NCBI RefSeq assembly: GCF_011082085.1
Contig: NZ_CP041063.1
Location: 2,294,001 to 2,358,000 of the forward strand
Length of the DNA: 64,000 nt
Reading direction: 5' to 3'
DNA from: Bacillus sp. Cs-700
Lineage (GTDB): Bacteria; Bacillota; Bacilli; Bacillales; Guptibacillaceae
Position numbers and translations under genes: made by a program. The notes beneath the pieces were generated by a model, which was not told the origin of the DNA, made no database searches, and worked only from the letters and a program-made list of their open reading frames with translations. Of the stretch, positions 2,082-51,105 are shown one piece after another (the first letter of the stretch is position 1; every line of letters starts with the position of its first letter).

Positions 2082-2209
2082 AAATCATCTTCCTTTCTTC
2101 ATTTAAGTTTATATTATGCAAGTAGTTCTGCAGACCTATATCTATAAGACCAGTATACATAGCATACTTATTCTTATAAATACCATTTCAAGAAATAAAA
2201 GGTATTATC

Positions 2210-2238
2210 GAATAAAAAAATAAAATCTCAACTGTCAA
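2210..2238 (-). promoter_or_regulatory. Candidate promoter upstream of gtaB
   Basis: On the minus strand TTGACA (2233-2238) is separated by 17 bases from TTATTC (2210-2215). The -35 is consensus and the -10 is weak. It lies in the 184-base gap between the manA stop and the gtaB start. Confidence 0.35.
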
Positions 2239-2265
2239 ATTAGGTTGATATCATGTTTTCTCTCT

Positions 2266-3228: not shown

Positions 3229-3241
3229 ATACTCCTCCAGC

Positions 3242-4123: not shown

Positions 4124-4156
4124 AACTGGTAACCCCCGACACTTATCGTTGCTATT

Positions 4157-4178
4157 AGCCCTCTTTCTAAAGAGGGCT
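4157..4178 (-). terminator. Short perfect hairpin between pgcA and the epimerase gene
   Basis: Arms AGCCCTCTTT and AAAGAGGGCT with a 2-base loop lie 7 bases after the pgcA stop. No run of U follows on the minus strand, so it may be a weak terminator or an mRNA processing/stability hairpin rather than a full stop. Confidence 0.45.
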
Positions 4179-4185
4179 ATATTCT

Positions 4186-5931: not shown

Positions 5932-6051
5932 GTCATCCCCCTAATTATCTTGAACCTATCTATCATCAATAAGATAAAACATACATACGTATCTATTGTT
6001 CCAATAATTTTCCCCAAAAAGATTATTCAGCATAAATTCAAATTTAAATAA

Positions 6052-6073
6052 GCCCCCTACTACATAGGGGACG
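6052..6073 (-). terminator. Weak hairpin after the manC-like gene
   Basis: Arms CCCCTA (6054-6059) and TAGGGG (6065-6070) with a five-base loop follow the stop codon of the mannose-1-phosphate guanylyltransferase. The trailing sequence on the minus strand is T-rich (GCTTATTTAAATTT) but not a clean U tract. The 153-base gap between this gene and pgcA otherwise shows no ORF. Confidence 0.45.
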
Positions 6074-6084
6074 ATATCAAATAT

Positions 6085-7470: not shown

Positions 7471-7487
7471 ATAAAACGCCTCATTTC

Positions 7488-8738
7488 TTAAGAATTATAC
7501 AATAGTTCTTTTAACTTGCTTTCAAAGCTACTTAAGATTTGGTTTTTATTTAAGTATTGTTCAGCATAGTTTCTAGCGTTTACACTCATTTTATTTCTTA
7601 AATCATTATCGTTAGCCATCTTTGTAATCATTTCTACAAATTTTTGTAAGTCCTCAGGGGGGGATGTTTCACCAACATTATTGGTTTTTAAAACTTCGTA
7701 TAGGGCTGTACCTTTTTCAGCAGTTCCTATGCATGGTCGACCACTAGAAAGTATATTTGTCAGTTTCGAAGGCATAACTAAATCAGCTGCTTCTCTTTTT
7801 TGAACTATTAAATGCACATCAGCTGTAGATATCAAAACTGGTAACTTTTCCAAAGGTTGAACATCTAAAAAGAAAACATTATTCAATTCTTTTTGTGTTT
7901 TAATTTTTTTTAATTTTTCACATGCCCCACCTGCGCCTGCCAATACAAACTTGATATTGTTTGAACGTTTTAAAATCTCGGCTGCTTCGAGTATCAATTC
8001 AAGCCCTTGCTTTTCCCCCATATTTCCAGCATACATGAACACTATATCATTTTCGGTAAAATTGAATTTTTTTCGATAAATATTATTTTTATTCATGGGT
8101 TTTATAAAATTGGTGTCTGACCAATTTGGAAACAGCCATGTTTTAGTAGAAATCACTTTCTTCTCTACAATCCTTTTTCTCATTGCTTCTGTTATTGTTG
8201 AAACTATAGTAGATTTTTTTAATAACACACTCTCAATTTTATATAAAATTTTACCAAACAATCCATCTCCTAACATCCCAAGCCTAACTGCAGCATCTAC
8301 TTGGAGGTCTTGAATATGGAAAATATTCGGAACACCCCTGAAATATTTATATACTAGTGGCAATAACCCAAGTTGCATTGGGGGTGATACTACAATTACT
8401 AAATCATATTTCTTTTTTTTGAATAAGATAGGAATCCAATACTTTAGGGAATTAAAAGCGAAAGAGCTTTCCAACAAAACCCTACTTTTAGCATTTAATT
8501 TAGTAGAATCCGGTACTATTAACGGGGTGCGAAACACTCTAACCTGGTTTACAATTTCAGTATGAAATCCTTTATTCTTATATTCATCTGCTATTTCCCA
8601 TTTCGGGTAATGTGGTAAGGAAGCGATAACATCAACATCATGACCTTTTTCTTTAATCCATTCAGCCATTTCTCCAGTATATTTACCTGTACCAGTTGGC
8701 TCAGGGTAATAATTTAAACCATATATTAATATTTTCAT
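7488..8738 (-). CDS. GT4 glycosyltransferase, WcaI/WbuB-like
   Basis: A 416-residue GT-B-fold retaining glycosyltransferase. The N-terminus MKILIYGLNYYPEPTGTGKY and GEMAEWIKEKGHDV closely resembles the WcaI/WbuB subgroup, which adds fucose or N-acetyl-fucosamine in colanic acid and O-antigens. The C-terminal half has the sugar-nucleotide region FMYAGNMGEKQGLELILEAA and VMPSKLTNILSSGRP. The gene is AT-rich like its neighbours and lies 17 bases upstream of manC. Given the GDP-fucose genes in the operon, fucosyl transfer is a reasonable guess, but donor and acceptor are not determined by sequence. Confidence 0.8.
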   Translation of the reverse strand: MKILIYGLNYYPEPTGTGKYTGEMAEWIKEKGHDVDVIASLPHYPKWEIADEYKNKGFHTEIVNQVRVFRTPLIVPDSTKLNAKSRVLLESSFAFNSLKYWIPILFKKKKYDLVIVVSPPMQLGLLPLVYKYFRGVPNIFHIQDLQVDAAVRLGMLGDGLFGKILYKIESVLLKKSTIVSTITEAMRKRIVEKKVISTKTWLFPNWSDTNFIKPMNKNNIYRKKFNFTENDIVFMYAGNMGEKQGLELILEAAEILKRSNNIKFVLAGAGGACEKLKKIKTQKELNNVFFLDVQPLEKLPVLISTADVHLIVQKREAADLVMPSKLTNILSSGRPCIGTAEKGTALYEVLKTNNVGETSPPEDLQKFVEMITKMANDNDLRNKMSVNARNYAEQYLNKNQILSSFESKLKELLYNS

Positions 8739-8741
8739 ATA

Positions 8742-9938
8742 TTACTTTTTCTCCTTAACCATCCTATAAATATTTATTAATGTACTGTAATTTTGCTCTT
8801 CAGTATAATGTGCTAAATATCTATTCCTTGAATTTTTTTTCATTTTATTCAAATCATCCAAGTTGGTATTCACACCTTTTTCCAATATTAATTCCAAACT
8901 TTCTTTTTCGCCAGGTTTGAAAAAATATCCCTCTTGATTATCATTAATTATCTCTGGAAATCCAGCGTGATTGGGTACAATTGCTGGTGTTCCTAATGCT
9001 AAACTTTCAACTATTACCATGGGGAAACCTTCATACCATCGAGAAGGCATTACAATAAAGTTACTTTCTGATATTTCCTGCAATACTTCTTCTCTATTTA
9101 GCCAACCCCTCCAATTCACCTGTTCATCTTCACCATATTTTTTTTGTAATTTTTCTTTTTCTGGACCATCGCCTACTATGACTAATTCATACTTATTTTT
9201 ATCAATTTTAGACCAAGCATCTAAAAGTAAATCAACGCCTTTTTCGTAAGTAATACGCCCAACAAAAACAATTTTTTTAATCCCCTCTTCATTTTTCGAA
9301 TATTTAATATTTTCTATTGGATCAGGAATAAAATTGGGTTTAACATATAAATTCCGATCAGGTAATCCAGATTCCACCATGATGTTTTTCGCAAATTCTG
9401 TTAGAGTAATATAACCGTCAACTTTATTTTTGTAAGTTCCGATCATTTTATTTGTCATTTGCATACCTACAATAGCTGAAGTAGCACTAATAGAATCTCG
9501 ATAACATCGATTTTTAATTGCTTCTATTGGGAATTTTGCACCAACGCACAGTTCACATGGTTTACCATCTTTCATTAGTAAAGCGTTAGCGCAAGTAAGC
9601 CTGTAATTATGAAGAGTTTGCACAATTGGAATGTTTTTTTTTGAAGCTGCCCAGTATACACTTGGGCTTAACATAGGAAATGTATTATGAACATGAATAA
9701 TATCAGGTTTTTTTTCTTGTAAAACTTCTAAAAAATTTTTATAAGATTTTCGTGACCATATAGTTTCTAATCCTGCTCTAATCTTACTTGTGGCTTTTCC
9801 TACATTTATTTCATCATTAGATACCGTATAAAGTTCAACTTGATGCCCATGTTTCTCTAACAATTTATACTCTAATTCTAGAACTGTGTCTTCTCCACCC
9901 TTTGACTTATATTCATTATGAACCAACAAAATTTTCAA
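8742..9938 (-). CDS. GT4 glycosyltransferase
   Basis: A 398-residue family 4 glycosyltransferase: N-terminal acceptor domain (MKILLVHNEYKSKGGEDTV, HVHNTFPMLSP) and C-terminal donor domain (IVFVGRITYEKGVDLLLDAW, EGFPMVIVESLALGTPAIV with the conserved E-x7-E). A cysteine-rich CANALLMKDGKPCELC segment near residue 115 is common in this subgroup. Its start overlaps the polymerase stop by 4 bases, indicating translational coupling. It is probably one of the two repeat-unit glycosyltransferases of this cluster. Specificity is unknown. Confidence 0.8.
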   Translation of the reverse strand: MKILLVHNEYKSKGGEDTVLELEYKLLEKHGHQVELYTVSNDEINVGKATSKIRAGLETIWSRKSYKNFLEVLQEKKPDIIHVHNTFPMLSPSVYWAASKKNIPIVQTLHNYRLTCANALLMKDGKPCELCVGAKFPIEAIKNRCYRDSISATSAIVGMQMTNKMIGTYKNKVDGYITLTEFAKNIMVESGLPDRNLYVKPNFIPDPIENIKYSKNEEGIKKIVFVGRITYEKGVDLLLDAWSKIDKNKYELVIVGDGPEKEKLQKKYGEDEQVNWRGWLNREEVLQEISESNFIVMPSRWYEGFPMVIVESLALGTPAIVPNHAGFPEIINDNQEGYFFKPGEKESLELILEKGVNTNLDDLNKMKKNSRNRYLAHYTEEQNYSTLINIYRMVKEKK

Positions 9939-11335
9939 TATTTAAAACCTCTTCCAGAATTGATTTGTCTACTATCAAGACTACCTTCCTTATTTAATAT
10001 TATTTCTGATATAATTTTGTAAAAAAGAAAAACTAGAAATAAATTTAATAAACCTATAAATAACTGGCCAAAAAAATTGTAAAAATCTCCTCTGAACAAG
10101 CTATATGTTCGACTTATAATTAAACTATATAACAAAATATAAAATACATTTCTTCCATTAAGGAACAATATTTTATATATGGCTCCTAGTATGGCTCCCA
10201 TTATTGAAAAACCGACTACCACAAATATTATTCCTCCATTCATATATAGTTCTCCTATGAATGAAACAGAATATTCACTTCTTATCTCTCCATAAAACTC
10301 AGGATAAAAAGTCTGAGTGTATATAGCATTTCCACCACCACGCGGCTTGTTATCCCAAAGACTTCTTGGAATTGGGGCAGACAACCCCTTTATTAATGAT
10401 TCTCCATACAAAAATTCACTTTGGTTAGGGTACTTTCTTAAAACATCAATTGCTCCATCAAAAGAAGAAGCTTCAAACCCTCCCCAAAAAAAATGAGGCA
10501 TAGAGCTAAAGTTTTCTATAACAATATTTGAGATACTTTGGTTCTCGTTTGATTGGAAATATTGATCTCTGGCAATTGTTCTATAAAACACACCTATAAA
10601 CAAAAAGATTACTATACCTAATACAGCAAGTTTTTTTATACTGATTTGTTTATAAAATTGATGAATTACAATTAACAAGGGAAGTAAAAATCCATATATA
10701 AAATTTGATCTCGTTCCTAAAAACAAATCTATTAATAAAGTGAGAACAATTAGAAAAGCAATGTTTTTTCTTTTCACTTTTTTATTGACAATTGCACTAA
10801 AAATATATACTAATAATGCAAATTTGAAGCTTTGTATTAATGTTAATAGTATTCCTCCCCCATCGGAAAACCATTTATTTCTTAATTGAGTAACTTCGAC
10901 CAATGAATAACCCATACTTAAGGCATTTGATACCATATACAATAAAGCTAGCATTGAAATAATTAATGTTATAACAAAAAGAAATTTAGTAATACGAAAG
11001 TTCACATTGTACCTCATGTTTTCCTTACTAATTTCCCTTATTTTTTTTCTTTTATTTCTTAATAAGAAATATGCTATGTAAAATGAAGTTAGGGCTACAG
11101 ACCAAACCAGACTTACAGTACCTACTTCATTAAAGTCAGTACTAAATCGTTCAAATTCACCCGGACCAAACTCTTTTGTAGAAAATGTATAAACAGCATC
11201 TCCTAATATAAAAATAGCTACCCATATATTCACTAAAAAAATTGGTGATACCCACGTTTTTTCTATAATATGATTTAGTAAAAAACCAGCAACGATTACA
11301 TAACCTAAAACAATAATACCCAGTATATCTATCAT
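9935..11335 (-). CDS. Oligosaccharide repeat-unit polymerase (Wzy-like)
   Basis: A 466-residue, very hydrophobic and AT-rich gene product with about 11-12 predicted membrane spans and a large extracellular loop around residues 270-350 (GFEASSFDGAIDVLRKYPNQ, SLWDNKPRGGGNAIYTQTFY). This layout, and its place beside a flippase and glycosyltransferases, identify it as the O-antigen/capsule polymerase of a Wzx/Wzy-type pathway. Such proteins are conserved in topology rather than sequence, so the assignment rests mainly on topology, length and operon context. Confidence 0.75.
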   Translation of the reverse strand: MIDILGIIVLGYVIVAGFLLNHIIEKTWVSPIFLVNIWVAIFILGDAVYTFSTKEFGPGEFERFSTDFNEVGTVSLVWSVALTSFYIAYFLLRNKRKKIREISKENMRYNVNFRITKFLFVITLIISMLALLYMVSNALSMGYSLVEVTQLRNKWFSDGGGILLTLIQSFKFALLVYIFSAIVNKKVKRKNIAFLIVLTLLIDLFLGTRSNFIYGFLLPLLIVIHQFYKQISIKKLAVLGIVIFLFIGVFYRTIARDQYFQSNENQSISNIVIENFSSMPHFFWGGFEASSFDGAIDVLRKYPNQSEFLYGESLIKGLSAPIPRSLWDNKPRGGGNAIYTQTFYPEFYGEIRSEYSVSFIGELYMNGGIIFVVVGFSIMGAILGAIYKILFLNGRNVFYILLYSLIISRTYSLFRGDFYNFFGQLFIGLLNLFLVFLFYKIISEIILNKEGSLDSRQINSGRGFKY

Positions 11336-11337
11336 GG

Positions 11338-12558
11338 TTATCCCTTCTGTGTTAAATATTCATCCAATTCACCCAATAGCAGAACTTTATTCTCGTTAAC
11401 TTTGTTTTGTACTCGCTCAATTGGAAATTCGCTGTATACTAATGAACTCTTAACTATACTGACTAGTTCACTAGTTTTAAACTTTTCTATATCTAATGCA
11501 TATTCTTCTAAGCCCATTATCTTAAAAGTCCCCATAGTTTTAGGCTGGTAAGATAAAGCAATAGTTGGAGTTCCACCTGCAATAGCAAATATAGTTGAAT
11601 GCATTCTACTACCTATAAAGAAATCCATATCTCCATACATAGCTACTAATTCATCGGGTGTTGGATTTAATAATTCTAAGTCAACTACAGTTGCATTTTG
11701 ATTTAATATTTTTGACTGAAGTCTTAAGGAGGCATCTAGATCAGTATCTCCTGCTCCTACTGTAACCTGTGGGTAAATGTATAAATGTGCCTTAGGATAT
11801 TCTTTTTTTATCTCTTTAAAAGCTAATGCTAATTTATTCAAATAAGTTTCTACATCTTCATCAGTTGAATTGGGTCTTGAGAATCTCCAATCCATAACTG
11901 TAATTCCTATCTTAGGAAAATGATTTGACTTAAAATGTTTATCATTATTGTTTATATTTTTAGGCGCTAGCGTGAATCCTACATCTGAAACTTCTGAGAC
12001 ATTTTCAATACCTAAGTCTTTTAAAAGTTCTGTAGAATATGGTTCTCTACTAAAGAATTTCTTTACTTTCTTCAATACTGTCTTTACTACAAATTTATCT
12101 ATATTACTATAAAGCGGGCCAACACTTTGTGGGAAAGCAAGAACGGGTTTGGCGAATTTACAACTTAACCATATGTGATATAAGGAACTTAGTAATCCTA
12201 GACCTAAAGGCCCTCTTCTAGAAGAATATAGGTAACCCCCACCTACAGAAATCACCAAATCCGCTTTATGGTAATATTTAAAAGATTTATCATTTGGTTT
12301 TAAGTGTGCTTTAACGAATAGGTTTATCCCGTTTAAATATCTAGAAATAAGTGACTGTCCACTTTTCACTTCCCAAATAGCTGGTACGGATTTAACATTA
12401 TAATGACTATAAAATTCCTTATTTTCATATGAATGTGAGGACATAACATATATATCGGCGTCAGGATCTCTTTCTCTCAATAGATTAATCATTGCTATTA
12501 CTATTCCTGCGTCTCCTCTATTTTTTGCAGAGTATGCGTTAGTTAATAAGTATTTCAT
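11338..12558 (-). CDS. Polysaccharide pyruvyl transferase family protein
   Basis: A 406-residue member of the WcaK/CsaB pyruvyltransferase family. Supporting motifs are LTNAYSAKNRGDAGIVIAMI at the N-terminus, DLVISVGGGYLYS, VLAFPQSVGP, and a C-terminal DFFIGSRMHSTIFAIAGGTP and ALSYQPKTMG. The family transfers pyruvate from phosphoenolpyruvate to a sugar, forming a ketal that gives the polymer negative charge. It lies 2 bases from the polymerase gene. Pyruvylation of the exopolysaccharide is inferred from family and context. Confidence 0.82.
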   Translation of the reverse strand: MKYLLTNAYSAKNRGDAGIVIAMINLLRERDPDADIYVMSSHSYENKEFYSHYNVKSVPAIWEVKSGQSLISRYLNGINLFVKAHLKPNDKSFKYYHKADLVISVGGGYLYSSRRGPLGLGLLSSLYHIWLSCKFAKPVLAFPQSVGPLYSNIDKFVVKTVLKKVKKFFSREPYSTELLKDLGIENVSEVSDVGFTLAPKNINNNDKHFKSNHFPKIGITVMDWRFSRPNSTDEDVETYLNKLALAFKEIKKEYPKAHLYIYPQVTVGAGDTDLDASLRLQSKILNQNATVVDLELLNPTPDELVAMYGDMDFFIGSRMHSTIFAIAGGTPTIALSYQPKTMGTFKIMGLEEYALDIEKFKTSELVSIVKSSLVYSEFPIERVQNKVNENKVLLLGELDEYLTQKG

Positions 12559-12588
12559 AATTCGACTCCAATACCCTAAATTTTATCT

Positions 12589-13836
12589 TTATGATTGCTG
12601 TTTTATTGTTGTATCATAGTAACTATAAGTAATAATTAAAGTGAAAACCAATCCGCTAAGTAGTATACCTAAAGCACCTCCAAAACTTTCGTATGCTTTA
12701 ACTAAAAACAATCCAATTGTGATTGATATGCTTGCTGCAGAAATGTGTCCCCAAAAAAACGATTTAGTTTTAAGTTGAGCTCTTAAAGCTATTACTACTG
12801 GGCGATTCATCCCTAAAGCAAACTGATATAGCGCAAATATTATTACTAAATTTCTTGATTCGAAATATTTATCTCCATATATAAATTCAAACAAATAAAA
12901 TGAAAGTACTCCTGTTACTAATATCACACCTAAAAGTGGCATAAACATTTTTTTGTAAATATTTGCAATATATGAATTCAACTCTATCTTACCATTATTA
13001 TTAAATAACTGAGAGGCAATAGGTGTTATGGAATTTTCAAACAAGGTATATAGTACAGATAAGATACCCAACAAATTCATTGCTGCTCTTAACCCGCCGA
13101 GTTGAAGGTCATTTAAAAAAAATGCAGCAAAAATAAAATAACCTTGTGAAGCTATCCAGTAACCTATCATACCTCCAACGGGCCACTTTGAGAATTCCCA
13201 ATGATTTTTCAGGACATCAATTTTATTTGTTTTTCTTTTTTCCTGTTTTCTCCACTTACTGGTCGATAGTATGAATATCAAACTAATAAAATAGCCTAGG
13301 AAAAGAACAAATAATGCTCGAAAAGTATCTAGATTACCAACAAAGTAAATCAGTGTATTTCCGACAATAAATACTAATGTCAAAATGGTGCTACCAATTG
13401 CTAGTAGTTTGATTTGATTAATAGAATAGTATGCTTTTCGCAAAATTTCATACTGACTCCAAACCCACGCAACTACTGTTGATAGTATAATAATAAAGAA
13501 TGTAATATCTCTTACAAATAAATCAATAGTACCAAAAATTATTAAACATATTAATATGTTACTAATAAAATTACCAGTACTAATAATTAACAGATAGCTA
13601 ACTTTTGATTCACTGTATTTAGTTGGAAGAAACACTAAAACTGGGTTACTCCATAGTCCTAATGAAATAGAAAATGCAAGAGAAATTCCTGCAAATAAAA
13701 TAACATATTCTGCAAACTCACCGGGGGCAAGCATTCTACTTAATAGAATTACCATTCCAAAATTAAGAAGAGATATAAATCCCTGTTCAATAATACCTGT
13801 TCTAATTTTCCTTACTATAATAAGTAATTTACTCAA
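12589..13836 (-). CDS. Polysaccharide flippase (Wzx-like)
   Basis: A 415-residue membrane protein with about 12 hydrophobic segments. It starts SKLLIIVRKIRTGIIEQGFI and SLLNFGMVILLSRMLAPGEFA, the N-terminal pattern of MATE/MVF-type polysaccharide transporters. It would flip undecaprenyl-linked repeat units across the membrane for the Wzy polymerase. The start is a TTG at 13836 preceded by AGTAGGT. It is the first gene after a strong hairpin terminator at 13872-13908, which bears on how the distal part of the operon is expressed. Confidence 0.78.
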   Translation of the reverse strand: MSKLLIIVRKIRTGIIEQGFISLLNFGMVILLSRMLAPGEFAEYVILFAGISLAFSISLGLWSNPVLVFLPTKYSESKVSYLLIISTGNFISNILICLIIFGTIDLFVRDITFFIIILSTVVAWVWSQYEILRKAYYSINQIKLLAIGSTILTLVFIVGNTLIYFVGNLDTFRALFVLFLGYFISLIFILSTSKWRKQEKRKTNKIDVLKNHWEFSKWPVGGMIGYWIASQGYFIFAAFFLNDLQLGGLRAAMNLLGILSVLYTLFENSITPIASQLFNNNGKIELNSYIANIYKKMFMPLLGVILVTGVLSFYLFEFIYGDKYFESRNLVIIFALYQFALGMNRPVVIALRAQLKTKSFFWGHISAASISITIGLFLVKAYESFGGALGILLSGLVFTLIITYSYYDTTIKQQS

Positions 13837-13871
13837 TTTGTTTACCTACTTTTGATAATATATTTCTATAT

Positions 13872-13908
13872 AAATAAGGAGGAAGGATAAAAACCCTCCC
13901 CCTTATTT
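13872..13908 (-). terminator. Internal terminator between gmd and the flippase gene
   Basis: Arms AAATAAGG (13872-13879) and CCTTATTT (13901-13908), extended inward by a GGAGGAAGG/CCCTCCC region, form a long stem. It lies 3 bases beyond the gmd stop and in the middle of an otherwise continuous operon. Distal genes would need read-through, which fits the antitermination element proposed upstream. Confidence 0.65.
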
Positions 13909-13911
13909 ATT

Positions 13912-14868
13912 TCAACTCAAACGTTTTAAATCTTCATCAACCATCATATGAATTAACTCTTGAAAACTGACTTGAAGGTCCCAACCTAACTTTTCTTTCG
14001 CTTTCGAACAATCTCCAAGCAGTAGATCAACTTCTGCAGGTCTAACAAATTTCTCATCTACTACAACATAATCTTTCCAATTCAAATCTACATATGAAAA
14101 TGCGACTTCTACAAGTTCTTGCACAGTATGCATCTCACCGGTTGAAATAACATAATCATCTGGTGTGTCCTGTTGAAGCATCAACCACATAGCCTTAACA
14201 TAATCTCCAGCAAAACCCCAATCACGCTTAGAATCTAAATTACCTAATCTTAGTTCTGTTTGTAATCCCAATTTGATTTTAGCGACTGCATCTGAAACTT
14301 TTCTGGTTACAAATTCCAATCCTCTTCTAGGTGATTCATGATTAAACAAAATTCCAGAACATGCAAACATATTAAAACTTTCTCTATAATTTAAAGTAAT
14401 CCAATGCCCGTAAACTTTAGCTACTCCATATGGGCTTCTTGGGTAAAATGGTGTGTTTTCACTTTGAGGAGTTTCCAATACCTTTCCAAACATCTCTGAA
14501 CTTGACGCCTGGTAATATTTTGCATCTGGCTTAATAATTCTTACGGCTTCTAACATATTAGTTACACCCATAGCTGTAATTTCCCCTGTAGCAATGGGTT
14601 GTGGCCAAGAAGTAGCAACATATGACTGTGCTGCAAGATTATATACTTCATCTGGTTCTGAATATTGAACAGCTCTTATTAATGAAGATAAATCTGTTAA
14701 ATCTCCATCTATCCATTCAATTTGATTTCTGATATGTTCCACATTCTCATAATTTGGAGTACTAGTTCTTCTTCTTAATCCAAAGACATTATATCCTTTT
14801 CCTAATAAAAACTCTGCTAAATATGATCCATCTTGGCCAGTAATCCCAGTTATTAATGCAGTTTTCAT
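13912..14868 (-). CDS. gmd: GDP-mannose 4,6-dehydratase
   Basis: 318 residues of an extended short-chain dehydrogenase. The Rossmann motif is [13 protein letters not shown] at residues 7-19, the catalytic Thr/Ser and Tyr-Lys region is [12 protein letters not shown] and [15 protein letters not shown], and [17 protein letters not shown] is diagnostic for Gmd. It converts GDP-mannose to GDP-4-keto-6-deoxymannose, the first committed step to GDP-fucose. Its start overlaps the fcl stop by one base. It is slightly shorter than enterobacterial Gmd, as in other Firmicutes. Confidence 0.95.
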
Positions 14869-15833
14869 TATTTTACCCCCACCTGATTATTATGTTTATC
14901 TGTTTTATTTGCACTGTCTAAATACCAGTTATATGCTTGTTTAATTCCTTCATCTAGTTGAGTTTTTGCTTTCCAACCTAAGCTAGTTAACTTGGTCACA
15001 TCTACTAACTTTCGAGGTGTACCATCAGGTTTAGAAGTATCGAAAACAATTTCACCTTGATATCCAACGATTTTTTTTACTTTTTTAGCTAACTCACCAA
15101 TTGGAATGTCTTCTCCAACACCTATGTTAACAATTTGATCTTCATCGTAAGTGTCCATAAGGTGCAAACATGCATCAGCAAGGTCCTCAGAAAACAAAAA
15201 TTCTCTTTTTGGACTTCCTGTCCCCCAAACTACAACATTTTCGTTATTATTGATCTTTGCTTCATGGAATTTCCTTATCAATGCTGGTAATACATGAGAA
15301 TTATGTAGGTCAAAGTTGTCATTAGGTCCATAAAGATTTGTTGGCATCACTGATATAAACCTTGTACCATATTGTCTGTTGTATGATTGACACATTTTAA
15401 TGCCCGCAATCTTTGCTATTGCATAAGGTTCATTTGTTGGTTCTAATTCTCCTGTTAACAGATATTCTTCTTTTAAAGGTTGGTCTGCAAATTTAGGGTA
15501 GATGCATGTACTTCCTAGAAACAATAGTTTTTCAACATTATTTTTGTAAGCCGCATCAATTACATTGGTTTGTATCATGAGGTTATCACGTATGAAATCG
15601 GCAGGATATTCGTTATTGGCAACAATTCCTCCAACCTTCGCAGCTGCCAAAAAAACATAATCTATTTTTTCATTTTGAAAAAAAGAATTGACAGCAGCAG
15701 GATCACGCAAATCTAATTCACTGCTACGACGGTGAATTAGATTTGTAAATCCCTCTTTTTCAAGCTTGTTCAAAATTGCTGAACCAACTAGACCGCGATG
15801 TCCAGCAATATATATTTTAGAGTTTTTATTCAT
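14868..15833 (-). CDS. fcl: GDP-L-fucose synthase
   Basis: A 321-residue epimerase/reductase of the WcaG/Fcl type: [14 protein letters not shown] near the N-terminus for NADPH binding, [15 protein letters not shown] and [14 protein letters not shown] as the catalytic Ser/Tyr-Lys region, and [20 protein letters not shown] as a family signature. It completes GDP-L-fucose synthesis from the Gmd product. It overlaps gmd by one base, and the pair follows the initiating sugar transferase in the operon. Confidence 0.95.
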
Positions 15834-15858
15834 GTCTAAAAACTTCCTTCCATGTAAC

Positions 15859-16551
15859 TTAATAAGCCCCTTTTTTTAGGAAAACAATTAAGACTGTTCT
15901 AATGAGAATTTTGATATCAAATGTAAGAGACTGGTGATATACGTAATATAACTCCAAATCCACTCTTTCAGGATATCCGATATCACTTCTACCGCTTACC
16001 TGCCAATATCCTGTTACTCCAGGTTTTACTGAAAGAAAATCACTAGATTTACTTTGGTACTCTTTCAATTCCTCTTCAACTATTGGCCTTGGACCGACTA
16101 AACTCATGTCACCTTTTAAAACATTTATTAATTGAGGTAACTCATCAAGACTTGTTCTCCTTAAAAATCTCCCAAGGTTAGTAATACGTGGATCCTCATC
16201 AGGCTCAAGTTTATAGTTATTCGCTAAGTATTTCTGGTACAATTCACTATTATTTTTAAGTTTTTCATCAGCATTCATTACCATGGATCTGAACTTATAA
16301 ATATTAAATAATTCCCCGTTCTTTCCGAAACGCTTCTGTTTGAAAAACACTGGACCTTTTGAATCACCTACAAGATAAAGAATACTCACTAGTAAAAATA
16401 AAGGGAAAGTAATCAGCAATCCGATTGCTGCTCCAAGTACATCAATGCACCTTTTTATGATTAAATAACTTTTACCGCTATTAATTTCTGCTTTATTGAC
16501 TTCAGCTAACGAAAAATAATTTGATTTTACATTTGAATTTTCCCCACCCAC
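15859..16551 (-). CDS. Undecaprenyl-phosphate sugar phosphotransferase (initiating enzyme)
   Basis: A 230-residue bacterial sugar transferase of the PglC/WbaP/EpsL type. One membrane-embedded helix near residues 38-60 ([19 protein letters not shown]) is followed by the conserved core: [69 protein letters not shown] and [14 protein letters not shown]. It attaches the first sugar-1-phosphate to undecaprenyl phosphate and so begins the repeat unit. The start is a GTG at 16551 with AAGGGG upstream. It is the first gene after the structured leader. Confidence 0.9.
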
Positions 16552-16610
16552 TAAATCACCCCTTCAAACTAAGACTAATCTTACATTATAATATCTATTA
16601 AAATATGTAA

Positions 16611-16760
16611 TAAGGCATCTAACCCATCCTCACGCCATACCAACGACAATAAATGTCTAAGGAGTATGGTTAAAAGCCTCCCACAGCATAGCCGAGTGCC
16701 TCCAGAGGTAATGGCAAGGAGACATCGCCATAACATGACTTTGGAACCACAATTAAACCA
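16611..16760 (-). ncRNA. Candidate EAR (epsC) antitermination RNA leader
   Basis: The 319-base gap between epsB and the sugar transferase is dense in secondary structure and poor in coding signal. Stems seen are CCATAC/GTATGG (16635-16640 with 16664-16669), nested GACA/TGTC (16645-16648 with 16654-16657), and ATGGC/GCCAT (16711-16715 with 16727-16731). Two GGAGGC blocks occur on the minus strand (16676-16682, 16698-16703). In B. subtilis the EAR element occupies exactly this slot, between epsB and epsC, and promotes read-through of terminators far downstream. A terminator lies before this element and another lies 2.7 kb after it. I did not run a covariance model, so identity rests on position and structure. 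Confidence 0.6.
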
Positions 16761-16810
16761 AATTATCACATTTATTATGATGTTACGATCTTAACACACT
16801 ACTTACGGCC

Positions 16811-16851
16811 TAAAAACAGGTGATTTTCTTTTGTTTCTGTCGAAAATCACC
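16811..16851 (-). terminator. Intrinsic terminator after epsB
   Basis: Perfect 10-bp arms GGTGATTTTC and GAAAATCACC (16819-16828, 16842-16851) with a 13-base loop, followed on the minus strand by TGTTTTT. It starts about 20 bases past the epsB stop and separates the regulatory genes from the structured leader and the biosynthetic genes. Confidence 0.8.
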
Positions 16852-16870
16852 ATTTAGTATAAAAGCACCA

Positions 16871-17581
16871 CTATTTCTGAGCATAGTAATAGTAGTAACT
16901 ACCATCTTTCATTTTCTTTCGATTAAGCACAACTCCAAGCAGCTTACTATTGACACTTTCAAGTCTCTCTTTCGCCTTTACCGCAGCTTCCTTATCCGTC
17001 GTCCCGCTACTCACAACTAGCACAGTCCCCTGCACCTTATTCGCTACAATCTGTGAATCGGCCACCGCAAGAATTGGAGGGCAATCAAATAGTACGACGT
17101 CATAATGTCGGAGTGCCTCTTCAATAAGGTTATCCATCCCTTTTGATCCAAGAAGCTCTGATGGATTCGGCGGAACTGGACCACTAGTAAGAACATTGAG
17201 ATTCGGCACTTCCGTTTCCTGCGTTACCTCTACCAACTCAGCCTGACGGGTGAGGATATTAGTGATCCCTCTTGTATTCATTGTTCTGAATGTATAGTGC
17301 ACAGTTGGCTTACGTAAGTCCGCATCCACAATTAGAACGCTTTTTCCCTGTTGCGCAAGGACCACTCCTAGATTAGCGATTGTCGTAGACTTTCCTTCCA
17401 TTGGCCCAGAAGAAGTAACCATAATTGTACGAATCTCTTCTTCAACAGAAGCGAATTGAATGTTCGTTCTGATAGTTCGATATTGCTCAGCAATAGGTGA
17501 TTTCGGATTTTGGTGTGTTAAGAGACTTCTTTCTTTATCAACGTGTACAGACTTTCGGTTTTTACGACTCAACCGTTTCAC
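16871..17581 (-). CDS. epsB: BY-kinase (CpsD/CapB/EpsB-type tyrosine kinase)
   Basis: A 236-residue cytoplasmic bacterial tyrosine kinase. The Walker A region SSGPMEGKSTT is at about residues 57-67, Walker A' VLIVDADLRKP near 84-94 and Walker B VVLFDCPPI near 160. It ends with a tyrosine cluster (five consecutive Tyr before AQK), the autophosphorylation tail. It pairs with the membrane modulator encoded just upstream, whose stop codon it overlaps by 20 bases. Together they regulate chain length and export of the exopolysaccharide. The phosphatase encoded at 18576 is the expected antagonist. Confidence 0.93.
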   Translation of the reverse strand: MKRLSRKNRKSVHVDKERSLLTHQNPKSPIAEQYRTIRTNIQFASVEEEIRTIMVTSSGPMEGKSTTIANLGVVLAQQGKSVLIVDADLRKPTVHYTFRTMNTRGITNILTRQAELVEVTQETEVPNLNVLTSGPVPPNPSELLGSKGMDNLIEEALRHYDVVLFDCPPILAVADSQIVANKVQGTVLVVSSGTTDKEAAVKAKERLESVNSKLLGVVLNRKKMKDGSYYYYYAQK

Positions 17582-18302
17582 CCCTTACTGACTTATTCGT
17601 ATGGCCTTTCGATGAACCTACTTCTTTATCTTCGATTACTGCTATTGTCCCAAGGACTGGTAATCCAAGTAGCTTTTCAATGTCATTTTCATCTTTAATG
17701 GTGTTATCAAGGTATTCAAGTAAGAAGGCAAGACCAACACCAACCATTAACCCAACAACAAGCGCAATCACCATATTTAAAATAGGTTTTGGATTAACGG
17801 GACTTGGCGTTCCTTCAAAGTTTGCTTCTGAAAGCACGCTAACGTTATCGACATTCATGATGCTACTAATCTCTTTTTCAAATACTTCAGCTGTTGTGTT
17901 TGCAATCTTTACAGCTAGTGCTGGATCAGCATCTTTTACATCAATCGAAACGACTTGAGAGTTTTGCGCGTTACTTACAGCAATTTTTTCATTTAATTCA
18001 CTGGTTGATAGATCAAGGTTAAGATCTGCTCCAACTTCATCTAGAATTTTCGGACTCTTAATAATGACGCTGTATGTATTAATAAGTTCAACATTTGTTT
18101 TTACCTGGTTATAGTCGAAAGCATTTTCAGCATCTGCTTTTTGGTTGACAAGAATTTGGGTTGAAGTTTGGTAAATTGGGGTAAGTAGGAAATACGAGAC
18201 AACTCCGCTTGTTGCTGTTGCAAGAAGTGTAATTAATAGAATAAGAGTGAGACGTTTTTTAAGAACCGAGAAAATTTCCTTTAAACTAATTGTTTCTTCC
18301 AT
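17562..18302 (-). CDS. epsA: Polysaccharide co-polymerase / kinase modulator (Wzz family)
   Basis: About 246 residues with a Wzz fold. The cytoplasmic N-terminus EETISLKEIFSVLKKRL is followed by TM1 near residues 17-37, an extracellular alpha/beta domain, a proline-rich NFEGTPSPVNPKP before TM2 near 175-196, and a short cytoplasmic tail that activates the kinase. The ATG at 18302, with GGAGG five bases upstream, is preferred to a start 7 codons further out that lacks a ribosome binding site. It is the first gene of the exopolysaccharide operon. Confidence 0.9.
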   Translation of the reverse strand: MEETISLKEIFSVLKKRLTLILLITLLATATSGVVSYFLLTPIYQTSTQILVNQKADAENAFDYNQVKTNVELINTYSVIIKSPKILDEVGADLNLDLSTSELNEKIAVSNAQNSQVVSIDVKDADPALAVKIANTTAEVFEKEISSIMNVDNVSVLSEANFEGTPSPVNPKPILNMVIALVVGLMVGVGLAFLLEYLDNTIKDENDIEKLLGLPVLGTIAVIEDKEVGSSKGHTNKSVRGETVES

Positions 18303-18533
18303 AAATGCCTCCAACGCGATCATAATTATTTTTAATACATAACTAATTTCAGTACAGATTTCACTATAACACAGAAAATCAGTTAAATTTAGCCTTTTTT
18401 TTCATGATTACCCACATGAATTTTGTCATAGTACGAATATACTATGATTTCATGTCGAAATTTGTAGAAGAAAAGGTTTTCAATCTCGTTTTTTATACAT
18501 ATTTTGACGAAAACTTTTCTATTAAATAATTGT
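18303..18533 (-). promoter_or_regulatory. Upstream region of the exopolysaccharide operon with an inverted repeat
   Basis: The AT-rich gap before epsA contains no ORF. It carries a perfect inverted repeat CATAGTA-N6-TACTATG at 18427-18446, a candidate operator, and a TATAGT that could serve as -10 near 18370 (minus strand) without a good -35. The transcription start and the binding protein are unknown. Confidence 0.4.
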
Positions 18534-46363: not shown

Positions 46364-46413
46364 GTTGTATGAGGAGGGGGTCAGGCTCGAGCCTGACCCC
46401 CTCCTCATACAAC
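46364..46413. repeat. Palindromic repeat, copy 9 (50-bp perfect palindrome with T tract)
   Basis: Both arms extend 25 bases without mismatch (outer ends GTTGTATGAGGA and TCCTCATACAAC), and CTTTTTT follows on the plus strand. It lies between the divergent repressor and sat genes. A TGTCCT/AGGACA hairpin (46345-46363) immediately precedes it. Confidence 0.93.
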
Positions 46414-46504
46414 CTTTTTTCCCATTCGCCCTCTCTTCTCCTCCTTTTCTTTCATAAGCTAGTAGCATCGATAATACTTGAACGAGCATGAAAGGAGATT
46501 AGTT

Positions 46505-47665
46505 ATGATCGAACCACATGGCGGTCACCTGGTGAACCGCATTCCATGTGAAGAAGATCGTCTGGCGCTGCTTGAGAAAGCTGCAATGTTTCCAGCGATC
46601 ACGTTAACACCATGGAATTTATCTGATTTATATCTGATCGCAATCGGAGCCTTCAGTCCGTTAACGGGCTTTATGAACAAAACTGATTATCAGAACGTTT
46701 TAACGAAAATGCGGCTCGCAAATGGGACAATCTGGAGCTTGCCTATTACACTTTCCGTTTCTGATGACGTGCGGGACCAAATATCTTTTAGTCCTACTGT
46801 TTGCTTAAAGGGGGATGACGGCGAAATCTACGGACTTATGGAAGTAGAAGATATCTATGAAACTGACAAACTTGAAGAAGCGCAAGTGGTTTATGGAACG
46901 AACGATCCAGCGCATCCTGGGGTACAAAAAACGTACGAGCAGCCGGCTTTTAACCTTGGAGGACCAATCACCCTCCTTCAACATCCAAAGGCACTTCAGG
47001 AACATTTTCACACGCCAGCTGAACTGAGAGGATTATTTCAACAACGTGGGTGGCAAACGATTGTAGGTTTTCAAACGCGCAATCCGATTCACCGCGCTCA
47101 TGAGTACCTTCAAAAGACGGCACTCGAAACGGTTGATGGGCTTCTGATCCATCCGCTCGTTGGTGAAACAAAGAAAGATGACATTTCAGCGGATATCCGC
47201 ATGAAAAGCTATCGTGCTCTATTAGAAAACTACTATCCGGCCGATCGCGTTATACTCTCCGTCTTTCCAGCCGCCATGAGGTATGCCGGTCCGCGCGAAG
47301 CCGTTTTTCATAGTCTCGTTCGGAAAAACTTTGGCTGTACCCATTTTATCGTTGGTAGAGACCATGCAGGCGTTGGCGACTATTACGATACGTTCGCAGC
47401 ACAGACAATTTTCAACCAATTTGCACAGGATGAAATCGGCATTGAGATCATGGCCTTTGAACATGCTTTTTACTGTGAAACATGTGGAAGCATGGCAACT
47501 TCCAAAACGTGTCCACACGACAGTGAATGTCACCTTCACCTGAGCGGCACAAAAGTTCGAGAGATGTTGAAAAATGGTCAGCGTCCACCAAAGGAATTTT
47601 CTCGACCTGAAGTGATCGACATTTTAATTAACGAGGTGCAACAGCATGAACCCGAAGAAACCTAA
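46505..47665 (+). CDS. sat: Sulfate adenylyltransferase (ATP sulfurylase)
   Basis: About 386 residues, the single-chain Sat type. Catalytic motifs are [17 protein letters not shown] near residue 190 (QTRNPxHRAH) and [15 protein letters not shown] near 280; a zinc-like [16 protein letters not shown] precedes [10 protein letters not shown]. It makes adenosine 5'-phosphosulfate (APS) from ATP and sulfate. The ATG at 46505 has AAAGGAG upstream and starts [12 protein letters not shown], the normal Sat N-terminus. First gene of the sulfate/PAPS operon; no APS or PAPS reductase gene accompanies it here. Confidence 0.95.
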
Positions 47666-47686
47666 TGCTGTCATCCTACTCTCACC

Positions 47687-49438
47687 ATGACTGCCTTCTA
47701 TTTTGTCATCATCACCATGGTCGCCATGCTCATTGGCCTTTTCTTTGAACTGGGACGGCCTGAGGTTATTCTCGCTTCCGTTCTCGTTTTATTTCTTTTC
47801 ACCGGGATCATTACGCCGGAGGAAGCGACGGCCGGATTCTCGAATGAAGGAATGCTCACCATCGCCCTTCTTTTTATTATTGCTGGTAGTATTCAAAAAA
47901 GCGGAATTGTCGACCGCACGTTTCTGCGCCTCTTAAAAGGGTCGTATTCACCAAAGAAACGATTGGCTAAATTGCTCTTGCCTATTTCGATGATTTCCGC
48001 ATTCGTGAACAATACACCGATCGTCATCGCTTCCACACCAATGGTAAAAAAATGGTGTATGGAAAACGATGTTTCGCCTTCTAAATATCTCATCCCACTT
48101 TCTTACGCTACTATTCTCGGCGGCACGATTACACTAATCGGGACATCAACCAATTTGGTTGTTCACGGTCTTCTTGTTGAAAATGGGTATGCTGGCTTTT
48201 CTTTTTTTCAGCTTAGCGCTATTGGTATTCCAATCACATTACTTGGACTTTTGTATTTGGTTCTATTTAGTCATCATCTGCTTCCAGGGCGCCGTATTTC
48301 TAATTTCTCTGAGCCAGTGCTTAAAGAATACACCGGTGAAGCGCTCATCACTGCCCAATTCCCTTATCTAAATCTTACAGTGAAAGAAGCGCAGCTAAGG
48401 AACTTGAAAGGATTATTTCTCGTTAGCATCTTACGCAACGAACATGCGATAGCGCCCGTGTCAGGCAACACGATTTTAAAAGAAGGTGACCGGCTGGTGT
48501 TTAGCGGTGATATTTCAACAATTACCGATATACAGCGGATGAAAGGGCTCGAACTTCAAGAAAGCACAGGTTCCTCTTTTTCAGATCACCACCGGCTCGT
48601 GGAGGGAATCGTCACCCATCATTCTTCCCACCTTTTTAAAAAGGTGAAAGATACCAATTTCAGAAGCCTTCATCAAGCTGTGGTAATTGCTGTTCATCGA
48701 CATAACCAGCGTTTGCAAACGAAAATCGGTGATATTGTGTTAAAGCCTGGTGACGTGCTGTTAATGGTGGCTGGAGAACAGTTTGATAAGAAAAACGATT
48801 TCTACGCCATTACCCCAATCGATCATAAGCTTGTAACCAAGCGACAAATCCGAATGGGCTGGCTGTCGATCGGATGGCTTGGAATGATGATTGCCCTCGT
48901 TACGTTCAACATTCTCTCGATGCTTACCGCGATGGCTGTAACGACACTGCTCCTCTTCTTAACGAAGCTTGTAACACCTGGCGAAGCGCGGGATCTCATT
49001 CAATGGAACGTTCTCTTGATGATCGCTTGTTCTTTCGGGATTGGAGCTGCGCTATTAAATTCAGGCGTCGCTACGTCAATGGCTGACTCCCTAATTACAA
49101 TCACCCAGCCTTTTGGTCTTTTTGCCACGCTCCTTAGCCTCTATGTCATCACAAATATCTTTACCGAAATGATGACAAATAGCGCCGCTGCCGTCTTTAT
49201 GTTTCCCGTCGCGATGGAGGTGGCACGTACACTTGAAGTCGAACTCATGCCACTCGCGATCACTGTTGCGATCGCTGCCTCCGCAAGCTTCATAACGCCA
49301 ATTGGCTACCAAACAAATTTAATTGTGTATGGCGCAGGTGGTTATCGGTTCCACGACTTTTTAAAAATTGGATTCCCTTTAACCATCATTGTGATGGTGA
49401 CCACATTAGTACTAGTTCGATTTTATTTAATGGCTTAA
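47687..49438 (+). CDS. SLC13-family anion symporter with RCK_C domains, probable sulfate permease
   Basis: 583 residues: two halves of membrane spans with the DASS/SLC13 signatures ISAFVNNTPIVIASTPMVKK and TLIGTSTNLVVHGLL in the first half and MTNSAAAVFMFPVAM and ITPIGYQTNLIVYGAGGY in the second, separated by two cytoplasmic TrkA_C domains (about residues 205-380). This layout matches the SAC1-like sulfate transporters. Its position between sat and cysC makes sulfate the likely substrate. The ribosome binding site is weak; the start 22 bases after sat may depend on coupling. Confidence 0.88.
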   Translation: MTAFYFVIITMVAMLIGLFFELGRPEVILASVLVLFLFTGIITPEEATAGFSNEGMLTIALLFIIAGSIQKSGIVDRTFLRLLKGSYSPKKRLAKLLLPISMISAFVNNTPIVIASTPMVKKWCMENDVSPSKYLIPLSYATILGGTITLIGTSTNLVVHGLLVENGYAGFSFFQLSAIGIPITLLGLLYLVLFSHHLLPGRRISNFSEPVLKEYTGEALITAQFPYLNLTVKEAQLRNLKGLFLVSILRNEHAIAPVSGNTILKEGDRLVFSGDISTITDIQRMKGLELQESTGSSFSDHHRLVEGIVTHHSSHLFKKVKDTNFRSLHQAVVIAVHRHNQRLQTKIGDIVLKPGDVLLMVAGEQFDKKNDFYAITPIDHKLVTKRQIRMGWLSIGWLGMMIALVTFNILSMLTAMAVTTLLLFLTKLVTPGEARDLIQWNVLLMIACSFGIGAALLNSGVATSMADSLITITQPFGLFATLLSLYVITNIFTEMMTNSAAAVFMFPVAMEVARTLEVELMPLAITVAIAASASFITPIGYQTNLIVYGAGGYRFHDFLKIGFPLTIIVMVTTLVLVRFYLMA

Positions 49439-49456
49439 GGAAAGGAGAACGATTGA

Positions 49457-50059
49457 ATGAAAGAAAAACATATTACCTGGCATGAAGGAAGTGTGATGAA
49501 GCAGGATCGCGAAAAAATGAAGGGGCATAAAGGTGTCGTGCTCTGGTTTACAGGGTTATCTGGTTCAGGTAAATCGACGATAGCTGTAGAGCTTGAGAAC
49601 GTTTTACACGCATCAGGTGTTCATACGTATCGTCTTGATGGCGATAACGTGCGGCATGGGTTAAACCGTGACCTTGGCTTCAGTGATGAGGACAGGGTCG
49701 AAAACATCCGGAGAATTGGTGAAGTGTCTCGGCTATTTGTAGATGCTGGACTGATGACCCTGACAGCCTTCATTTCTCCTTTTCAAAAAGACCGCGACAT
49801 GGTTCGTTCTCGATTCGATGATGGAGAGTTTATCGAGATTTTTGTAAAAGCAAGTGTTGAAGCATGTGAAAAGCGGGATCCAAAGGGTTTATATGCTAAG
49901 GTCCGCCGAGGAGAAATTCAACAATTTACCGGAATCGACTCTCCATATGAACCTCCAACTACCGCTCATATCGTTCTTGATACAGAAAAACTGACAATAG
50001 ATGAAGCCGTCCAGTCAATCGTGTCGTATTTACAGAAGCATAAGTATTTAAAAGGTTAA
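49457..50059 (+). CDS. cysC: Adenylylsulfate (APS) kinase
   Basis: 200 residues: P-loop [17 protein letters not shown] (GLSGSGKS at 33-40), then [34 protein letters not shown] and [14 protein letters not shown], all typical of CysC. It phosphorylates APS to PAPS, the universal sulfuryl donor. GGAAAGGAG precedes the ATG. It lies 18 bases after the transporter gene. Confidence 0.95.
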
Positions 50060-50166
50060 ATTTCAGCACAATTAAACTCATTTTTATTAGTAAGAATTTA
50101 AAATCGAGACGAATGATGGTCAGAAATTGCCATCAGATTCTTATAAAATTAAGGAGGTTTTAAGGT

Positions 50167-50922
50167 TTGAGCCAGATTGTCATTCCAAGCTTTTTCTTAA
50201 ATTCAATCCCAAAAAGCGGTACGCATCTCTTAAAACAGCTGCTTCTTGGGATACCTGGTATCCAATATAATCCTCACATTGGGTTATACGGACATTATCA
50301 TTATCAGACGGATGAAAAACTCCATCCAATTAAAAATCTTCCTCTACATTCTTTTGCAAATGGACACCTTCATTACTCAGTGGAATGGGAGACGTTCTTT
50401 AAAGAACTCAAAATGAAACAGGTCTTTGTACTGCGTGACCCACGAGATGTCTTAATTTCGTATGCTCACTTCATTCCTGGTACGCAAATAGACCATCTTT
50501 ATCGTACTTTCACACAAGAAGGGTTCACACATCGTGATCGTATCAAGTTTCTAATAGAAGGAGGGCCAGTTTTAGAGAATGGAATGCCAGATCACCCAGG
50601 CATTCGAGAGTGGTATCAAAGCTTTTCAGGTTGGTTAAACCGTCCAAATGTTCACGCTATACGCTTCGAAGATATGATTGCTTCAGAACAAATGAAACGA
50701 AAAACCACTGGCGAATTGCTTGATTTCCTATCTGATGGAGTCGACCATTCCCTTCATCGAGAAGACTGGATTACCGCAATGATTTCAAACATCCGACCAG
50801 AAGCTTCCGTTACATTCCGCAAAGGAAAAAGCGGTGGATGGAAGGATGAGATGGATGATGAACTCAAAGCACTGTTTCATGCTCGTGCTGGAGATCTACT
50901 CGAAGAATTGGGGTATGAGTAA
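50167..50922 (+). CDS. PAPS-dependent sulfotransferase
   Basis: 251 residues of the Sulfotransfer_1 fold. The 5'-phosphosulfate loop is NSIPKSGTHLLKQLL (SIPKSGTH at 13-20), the 3'-phosphate-binding region is FVLRDPRDVLISYAHF (RDPRDVLISY at 90-99), and near the C-terminus TFRKGKSGGWKDEM matches the RKGxxGxWK motif of cytosolic-type sulfotransferases. The start is a TTG with GGAGG nine bases upstream. It lies about 110 bases after cysC. The acceptor (polysaccharide, lipid, glycan or small molecule) is unknown. Confidence 0.9.
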   Translation: MSQIVIPSFFLNSIPKSGTHLLKQLLLGIPGIQYNPHIGLYGHYHYQTDEKLHPIKNLPLHSFANGHLHYSVEWETFFKELKMKQVFVLRDPRDVLISYAHFIPGTQIDHLYRTFTQEGFTHRDRIKFLIEGGPVLENGMPDHPGIREWYQSFSGWLNRPNVHAIRFEDMIASEQMKRKTTGELLDFLSDGVDHSLHREDWITAMISNIRPEASVTFRKGKSGGWKDEMDDELKALFHARAGDLLEELGYE

Positions 50923-50960: not shown

Positions 50961-51031
50961 AAAGAGTCCTGCTTGAAGGGACTTTTTGCTTGTTTTGTTT
51001 TTTAGGGGGGTCAGGCTCGAGCCTGACCCCC
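50961..51031 (+). repeat. Terminator-like hairpin and palindromic repeat, copy 10
   Basis: Hairpin AAAGAGTCC/GGACTTTTT (50961-50987) follows the sulfotransferase stop by about 40 bases; then GCTTGTTTTGTTTTTTAG and the palindrome GGGGGTCAGGCTC with its complement (51006-51031). Probably the transcription end of the sulfate operon. Confidence 0.8.
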
Positions 51032-51105
51032 TCTCCTTTTTTCATAGGATTTCTCCAATCAGGGTAGCATACGAATACCTAGACCTATGAAGGAGGAAAC
51101 CGGTT

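Follow-up and report, generated by a model that had tools for sequence, protein, structure and literature searches.

A predicted stand-alone sulfation cassette in Bacillus sp. Cs-700 whose sulfotransferase groups with those of glycan loci

Algae, animals and certain bacteria are known to contain sulfated polysaccharides, and gene clusters for them have been described in marine Gram-negative bacteria. Here we analyse a four-gene unit of Bacillus sp. Cs-700, situated in a 64-kb stretch (G000:C1:2294001-2358000, referred to as the window) of a genome (G000) that forms a single contig of 4.30 Mb. The unit comprises sat, an anion permease gene, cysC and a sulfotransferase gene (ST), and is predicted to be an accessory cassette that makes 3'-phosphoadenosine 5'-phosphosulfate (PAPS) and uses it for sulfuryl transfer. 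Modules combining PAPS synthesis with a sulfotransferase are already known from the capsule clusters of marine Gram-negatives. Cobetia marina KMM 1449 has a capsule cluster with PAPS genes, cysQ, a sulfate permease and ST, and its sulfated capsule is of determined structure (PMC11766843). The capsule cluster of Vibrio sp. KMM 8419 has second copies of cysC, cysN and cysD together with STs, the structure of its capsule has been determined, and its authors regard PAPS genes plus STs as the hallmark of sulfated polysaccharide clusters (PMC11641403).

The window unit resembles the Cobetia cluster in its dedicated PAPS genes, putative sulfate permease and ST, and the Vibrio cluster in its extra PAPS genes accompanied by a sulfotransferase (PMC11766843, PMC11641403). 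The Cobetia cluster differs in being Gram-negative, in its size of about 70 genes, and in having cysQ and a sulfurylase of the cysD plus cysN/cysC type; the Vibrio sulfurylase is heterodimeric and its PAPS genes lie inside the capsule cluster. The window unit, unlike either, has a single-subunit Sat, an SLC13-type permease, no recognised glycan gene, and an ST that groups with STs of sugar loci; glycan assembly genes are present in homologous ST loci of other species. Hence, although the unit has both the extra PAPS-synthesis genes and the ST gene that characterize such clusters, we do not file it as a sulfated-polysaccharide cluster of the Cobetia/Vibrio type, because glycan assembly genes were not recognised in it. 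cysQ is likewise not in the unit; CysQ or homologues occur in the sat-permease-cysC loci L157, L162, L163, L164 and L166. Six bacterial genera are reported as makers of sulfated polysaccharides in a review whose available text contains neither 'Bacillus' nor 'Firmicutes' (PMC11625862), and a paper on Bacillus albus exopolysaccharide mentions sulfated exopolysaccharide and sulfate content (PMC8927020). Among the matches listed by a search of an incomplete literature collection, covering titles and the openings of abstracts, there was no Bacillaceae gene set for glycan sulfation and no sulfated spore glycan.

All four genes lie on the plus strand, separated by gaps of 21, 18 and 107 nt, which bears out an earlier annotation made from the letters alone (the sequence-only reading) that described them as co-directional with short gaps. 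The first, sat (46505..47665, +), is predicted to encode a single-subunit ATP sulfurylase that makes adenosine 5'-phosphosulfate (APS), as judged by Pfam matches (PF01747 and PF14306; ATP-sulfurylase at 335 bits, and PUA_2), by the intact motifs QTRN, HRAH and GRDHAG, and by a Sat tree; its ATG start codon at 46505 is preceded by AAAGGAGA. The second gene (47687..49438, +) encodes an SLC13/DASS-like anion permease with 11 predicted hydrophobic segments and two TrkA_C domains, a putative sulfate importer whose relatives of solved structure are VcINDY and human SLC13 members. It matches CitMHS at 228 bits and Na_sulph_symp at 51 bits, both Pfam families (PF03600 and PF00939) being above their cut-offs, and scores 113.7 bits against TIGR00785, below the cut-off of 198.6. 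The sequence-only reading had named it an SLC13/RCK sulfate permease; sulfate is the presumed substrate. The third gene, cysC (49457..50059, +), is predicted to encode the APS kinase that makes PAPS (APS_kinase, 229 bits; motif GLSGSGKS intact), and the fourth (50167..50922, +) a sulfotransferase of the Sulfotransfer_1 family (PF00685, 59.9 bits against a curated cut-off of 22).

The ST contains PKSGTH, R90-x7-S98 and RKG at 218-220, and it was correctly read at the outset as having intact PAPS-binding motifs: across 42 homologues S17, G18, H67, R90, S98, G220 and W225 are invariant, and K16, T19 and R218 are conserved at at least 90%. By analogy with the cytosolic sulfotransferases (SULTs), we take these elements to be the 5'-phosphosulfate loop, the 3'-phosphate motif, the RKG loop and the conserved His. 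The PAPS-binding motifs and a profile match over nearly the full length are shared with the SULT family (PF00685; 2zpt, 5x2b), which differs in consisting mostly of animal small-molecule enzymes and is distant in sequence. The protein has zero hydrophobic segments and is probably located in the cytosol. Close relatives that carry a name, at 91-92%, are from Pseudalkalibacillus hwajinpoensis, P. spartinae and Bacillus sp. RAR_GA_16, which makes Pseudalkalibacillus the probable genus of the host.

Cysteine synthesis appears to be served from elsewhere in the genome, which has one cysH (PAPS reductase), two sat, two full cysC genes plus one marginal fragment, and one Sulfotransfer_1 gene, the sulfotransferase count being for that profile alone. 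No open reading frame for cysH or sulfite reductase was recognised within the unit, no search having been aimed at the latter. The only cysH of the genome, with the second sat and cysC, is found in a cysH-cysP-sat-cysC-ylnD operon and the genes that follow it (L013), the gene names being those we presume from comparison with B. subtilis. A SAM (S-adenosylmethionine) riboswitch (86.7 bits) lies upstream of this operon, and none was detected at gathering score anywhere in the window, where the cobalamin riboswitch and epsC RNA are the only RNA families at the gathering threshold. Because the cysH operon has its own sat, cysC and SAM riboswitch and the window has no such riboswitch, the window set is not the general assimilation set. 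The two sets have homologous Sat (55-58% for the cassette orthologues) and CysC (54-57%) proteins; the cysH operon differs in its cysH, cysP and SAM riboswitch, in using another transporter family, and in having no ST. These results support the view put forward in the sequence-only reading, that a unit without PAPS or sulfite reductase would serve PAPS formation and sulfuryl transfer rather than cysteine synthesis, and the separate cysH with its own sat and cysC is what that reading had proposed to look for; the absence of any other sat and cysC, which it had named as refuting, does not hold.

The arrangement goes beyond chance: 6 of the 15 family genomes (G000, G005, G008, G010, G012 and G014) keep all four genes in this order, with the ST disrupted in G010, which has a second ST (39%) at another place. 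Relative to the window, dN/dS (the ratio of nonsynonymous to synonymous divergence) ranges over 0.08-0.13 in the first three genes (sat, permease and cysC) and over 0.11-0.17 in the ST, with the G010 ST omitted and the cysC comparison with G005 saturated; the unit is under purifying selection. At synonymous sites the window ST diverges from those of G012 and G014 by 0.21 and 0.25, far less than the adjoining sat, permease and cysC (0.52-0.67), which suggests that the ST gene has been exchanged between species; in the comparison with G008 the ST (0.26) stands only a little below its neighbours (0.31-0.40). The unit is bounded on both sides by a terminator-like palindrome, GGGGGTCAGGCTCGAGCCTGACCCCC (the core of a 20-bp stem), at 46376..46401 on the left and, in a matching copy, at 51006..51031 on the right. 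In G006 and G009 the left flank is kept, the four genes are missing, and one palindrome copy stands in their place. The core GGTCAGGCNNNNGCCTGACC has 15 genomic copies, 10 of them inside the window (at both unit ends and in 8 more places), and the palindrome is found in 14 of the 15 family genomes.

Relatives of the ST are sparse among the genomes of the order: they occur in 32 of 397, namely 12 of the 15 family genomes and 20 of the other 382, in keeping with the earlier remark that so minimal a set is uncommon. The surroundings were retrieved for 30 of the 32 (all except G178 and G346). In 16 of the 32 genomes an ST belongs to a sugar locus that includes a capE homologue, accompanied in 15 by wecB; six of these loci are in the genus (G002, G003, G004, G007, G011 and G013) and ten outside it (G019, G057, G125, G129, G176, G193, G288, G309, G369 and G384). 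Six of the 32 have the cassette, and eight retrieved ST genomes have neither capE locus nor cassette (G152, G166, G201, G248, G262, G289, G328 and G347), the stretches of G166 and G328 ending at contig ends. sat lies within about 8.3 kb of the ST in 5 of the 16 capE loci (G007, G125, G176, G193 and G384), and sat plus cysC within about 11 kb in the same five; the sugar loci of G176 and G384 also contain sat, an SLC13-type permease and cysC. A midpoint-rooted tree of 42 ST proteins, in which the cassettes are represented by the window, G005, G008, G012 and G014, places these five STs with those of G002, G003, G013, G176 and G384 in a set of ten (support 100/99), and all five of the latter are encoded in loci with wecB, capE, rmlD, epimerase and glycosyltransferase genes. 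This grouping of the cassette ST with STs of predicted glycan loci is new in the present analysis. We assign the names wecB, capE and rmlD from homology: at the corresponding locus of the Cs-700 genome WecB scores above its NCBIfam cut-off, and the capE product (against PseB and FnlA) and rmlD product (against RmlD) score below theirs. A CotS-type gene lies within 13 kb of the ST in G002, G003 and G013 (283 bits against a cut-off of 173 in G013), and the CotS-wecB-capE locus of the Cs-700 genome (L149), with CotS above cut-off, contains no ST.

We consider it probable, though well short of certain, that the unit is a stand-alone sulfation cassette in which PAPS is made and its sulfuryl group moved to a sugar destined for the surface of the cell or spore. 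The permease would import an anion, most likely sulfate, Sat would convert sulfate to APS and CysC would convert APS to PAPS, from which the cytosolic ST would transfer the sulfuryl group to a hydroxyl of a sugar produced in the cytosol, and the sulfated sugar would then reach the surface of the cell or spore. Gene identities, motifs, the separate assimilation operon, conservation, absence at a palindrome in two relatives and the grouping of the ST are read from sequence; sulfate as the permease substrate, catalysis and the glycan acceptor are what we infer from them. Since the nearest ST relatives in other species lie among sugar-coat genes, a sulfated sugar of the surface is the probable product. 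More speculatively, the acceptor may be a spore-coat glycan. The mother-cell cytosol is where coat glycans are synthesized, and a cytosolic ST would suit such an acceptor. A tentative extension, possible but with the balance tipped against it, is that the spores of some Bacillales bear a coat of sulfated glycan, and that the ST arose in a CotS-associated spore-coat sugar locus and then, in the clade of Cs-700, moved together with sulfate import and PAPS supply into a palindrome-bounded cassette whose gain or loss leaves cysteine synthesis unaffected. If the proposal is right, it would identify a small, testable gene set that renders surface charge switchable in spore-formers, might partly explain why some spore-formers have two sat genes, and would offer a compact PAPS-supply cassette for enzymatic sulfation.

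Several observations weigh against this interpretation. The ST of G010 is disrupted near its start, and sat, permease and cysC there remain open. The permease substrate cannot be read from the sequence, and it is the operon context that suggests sulfate. CotS or CotSA-like genes occur in only 4 of the 16 ST-capE loci in the stretches retrieved (G002, G003, G007 and G013), and a CotSA ortholog is found in only 8 of the 15 family genomes (E 1e-80); the CotSA-like protein matches general glycosyltransferase families only, and the names CotSA, YtcB and CgeB are our own assumed assignments. G008 has an intact cassette and neither a capE ortholog nor a CotSA-like ortholog, and in G009 the glycan locus occurs with no ST at all. 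The Sat tree can bear little weight, on two counts. In a midpoint-rooted tree of 43 Sats, the window Sat falls in a set of 18 (support 96/89) that includes none of the 18 rows labelled as cysH-operon Sats, a label given where cysH or cysP lies in the short stretch; the Sats from the ST loci of G007, G125, G176 and G384 are outside this set, which means that Sats from ST loci are not a single group. Within the set, L141 (G263), which carried the label 'sat_perm_only', turned out to precede cysH, and a cysP homologue lies close to L125 (G122). In G263 the order is sat-permease-cysC followed by cysH, so this order alone is no proof of sulfation, and a rule that sat-permease means sulfation was rejected.

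The alternative that survives best, although we regard it as unlikely, is that PAPS formation and sulfate transfer are indeed the work of the cassette but the acceptor is a small molecule or lipid, such as a phenol, an osmolyte or a glycolipid. When the ST profile was compared with solved structures the best matches were cytosolic small-molecule SULTs (E down to 2.7e-20), none of the 56 matches was named as a heparan- or chondroitin-type enzyme, hydrophobic segments are absent from the ST, and no glycan assembly gene was recognised next to it or around 46-52 kb of the window. However, SULT similarity at such depth does not fix the acceptor, and the nearest kin of the ST in the tree outside the cassettes are all in loci for sugar biosynthesis and glycosyl transfer, which points to the sugar acceptor that we favour. 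A still smaller probability attaches to the exopolysaccharide encoded 28 kb away in the window, at 1191-18323 on the minus strand, where there are GDP-fucose genes, with GDP-L-fucose synthase and a repeat-unit polymerase above their cut-offs, a pyruvyl transferase, and an epsC RNA leader at 16612-16730; its claim as the acceptor is weakened because gmd is limited to four family genomes of 15 (G000, G003, G005 and G010) and does not follow the cassette. That the unit is a second general assimilation set feeding cysH, with the ST an unrelated downstream gene, is very improbable and was rejected as its main role: Sat and CysC appear catalytically complete and the G263 Sat, from the set that precedes cysH, groups with the window Sat, but sat, cysC, cysP and a SAM riboswitch are all found with the separate cysH operon, the cassette has no such riboswitch and is missing in G006 and G009, and the ST is kept in place in six genomes and disrupted in one of these.

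Genomes with an ST more often have at least two sat matches (19 of 32, compared with 61 of 365 ST-negative genomes; Fisher p 4e-7), also outside the family (11 of 20 compared with 60 of 362; p 2e-4), these p values being a guide only because the genomes are related and the counts are of matches unchecked as separate genes. Within the genus, a single sat is present in G006 and G009, which have no ST, and also in G002, G004, G011 and G013, which do have one.

Homologues of the ST are also found on plasmids, where 36 records have a match, 30 from Pseudosulfitobacter (27.6% in the two listed) and 6 from Priestia, each of the six Priestia records having a capE homologue as well. The Priestia megaterium plasmid STs (32-38%) lie with wecB, capE and rmlD homologues and glycosyltransferases; these loci differ from the window unit in that glycan genes and ST occur together and are plasmid-borne, with no annotated sat-permease-cysC set in the stretches read. 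Of three such stretches, two have annotated spore coat genes, one of them with cysC, and the third has neither. A capE homologue is also present on pBM600 of strain QM B1551, which is not among the six Priestia records with an ST. This plasmid is missing from strains that lost the exosporium, according to the available text of PMC4674009, which makes no mention of sulfotransferases, epimerases or glycosyl enzymes. Giant genes of about 21-22 kb, annotated as carboxypeptidase regulatory-like, adjoin the P. megaterium plasmid sugar and ST genes in L184 and L186.

Upstream of sat a block of 21 nt, TTCTTTCATAAGCTAGTAGCA (46447..46467, +), is identical in the upstream regions of all six cassette genomes and may be a promoter or regulatory site. 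We liken CATANNNTA to the -10 element of sporulation sigma-K, on an assumed consensus, with the AC of the -35 missing; CATAAGCTA is kept upstream of sat in all six cassette genomes with no -35 alongside. A sigma-K-type site was found at 1 of the 5 gene starts examined in the coat-sugar locus of the Cs-700 genome (at -142), and upstream of wecB at -46 in G384 and -51 in G002. A scan of the region gave no sigma-70-type site directly upstream of sat, and there was no excess of promoter-like sites (5 versus 8.3 in shuffled sequences) or terminator-like sites (6 versus 5.0). The 107-nt gap between cysC and the ST is weakly conserved among orthologues and contains a weak hairpin, and the expression level of the ST may therefore differ from that of the rest of the unit.

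Two further sat-permease-cysC loci lie among polysaccharide genes. A second set of the genus, in G014 (L157, G014:C41:243000-259000), is within a polysaccharide locus of the Wzy type. This locus also has CysQ, a Sulfotransfer_2 gene, and genes resembling those for Kdo (3-deoxy-D-manno-oct-2-ulosonic acid) synthesis (cytidylyltransferase, DAHP-synthase family and SIS/CBS), and a sulfated Kdo-like polysaccharide in a Gram-positive is possible from this gene content. A polysaccharide locus in G154 (L162, G154:C11:397500-416500) has sat-permease-cysC-cysQ and two NKWYS (PF10364) proteins; the ST profile had zero matches in this locus, where three proteins were scanned with Pfam, and the NKWYS proteins might for that reason be its sulfotransferases. 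A gas-vesicle-like cluster, named by eye without a family search, adjoins the sulfation unit, following the ST, in G005, G008, G010, G012 and G014 (stretches L038-L041, L043 and L183, which include G006; corresponding window site 51032-51105). It is present in G006 without the unit and missing at that site in the window genome and in G009, and we make no claim of a functional tie between the two, since the window genome has the unit without the cluster and G006 the cluster without the unit.

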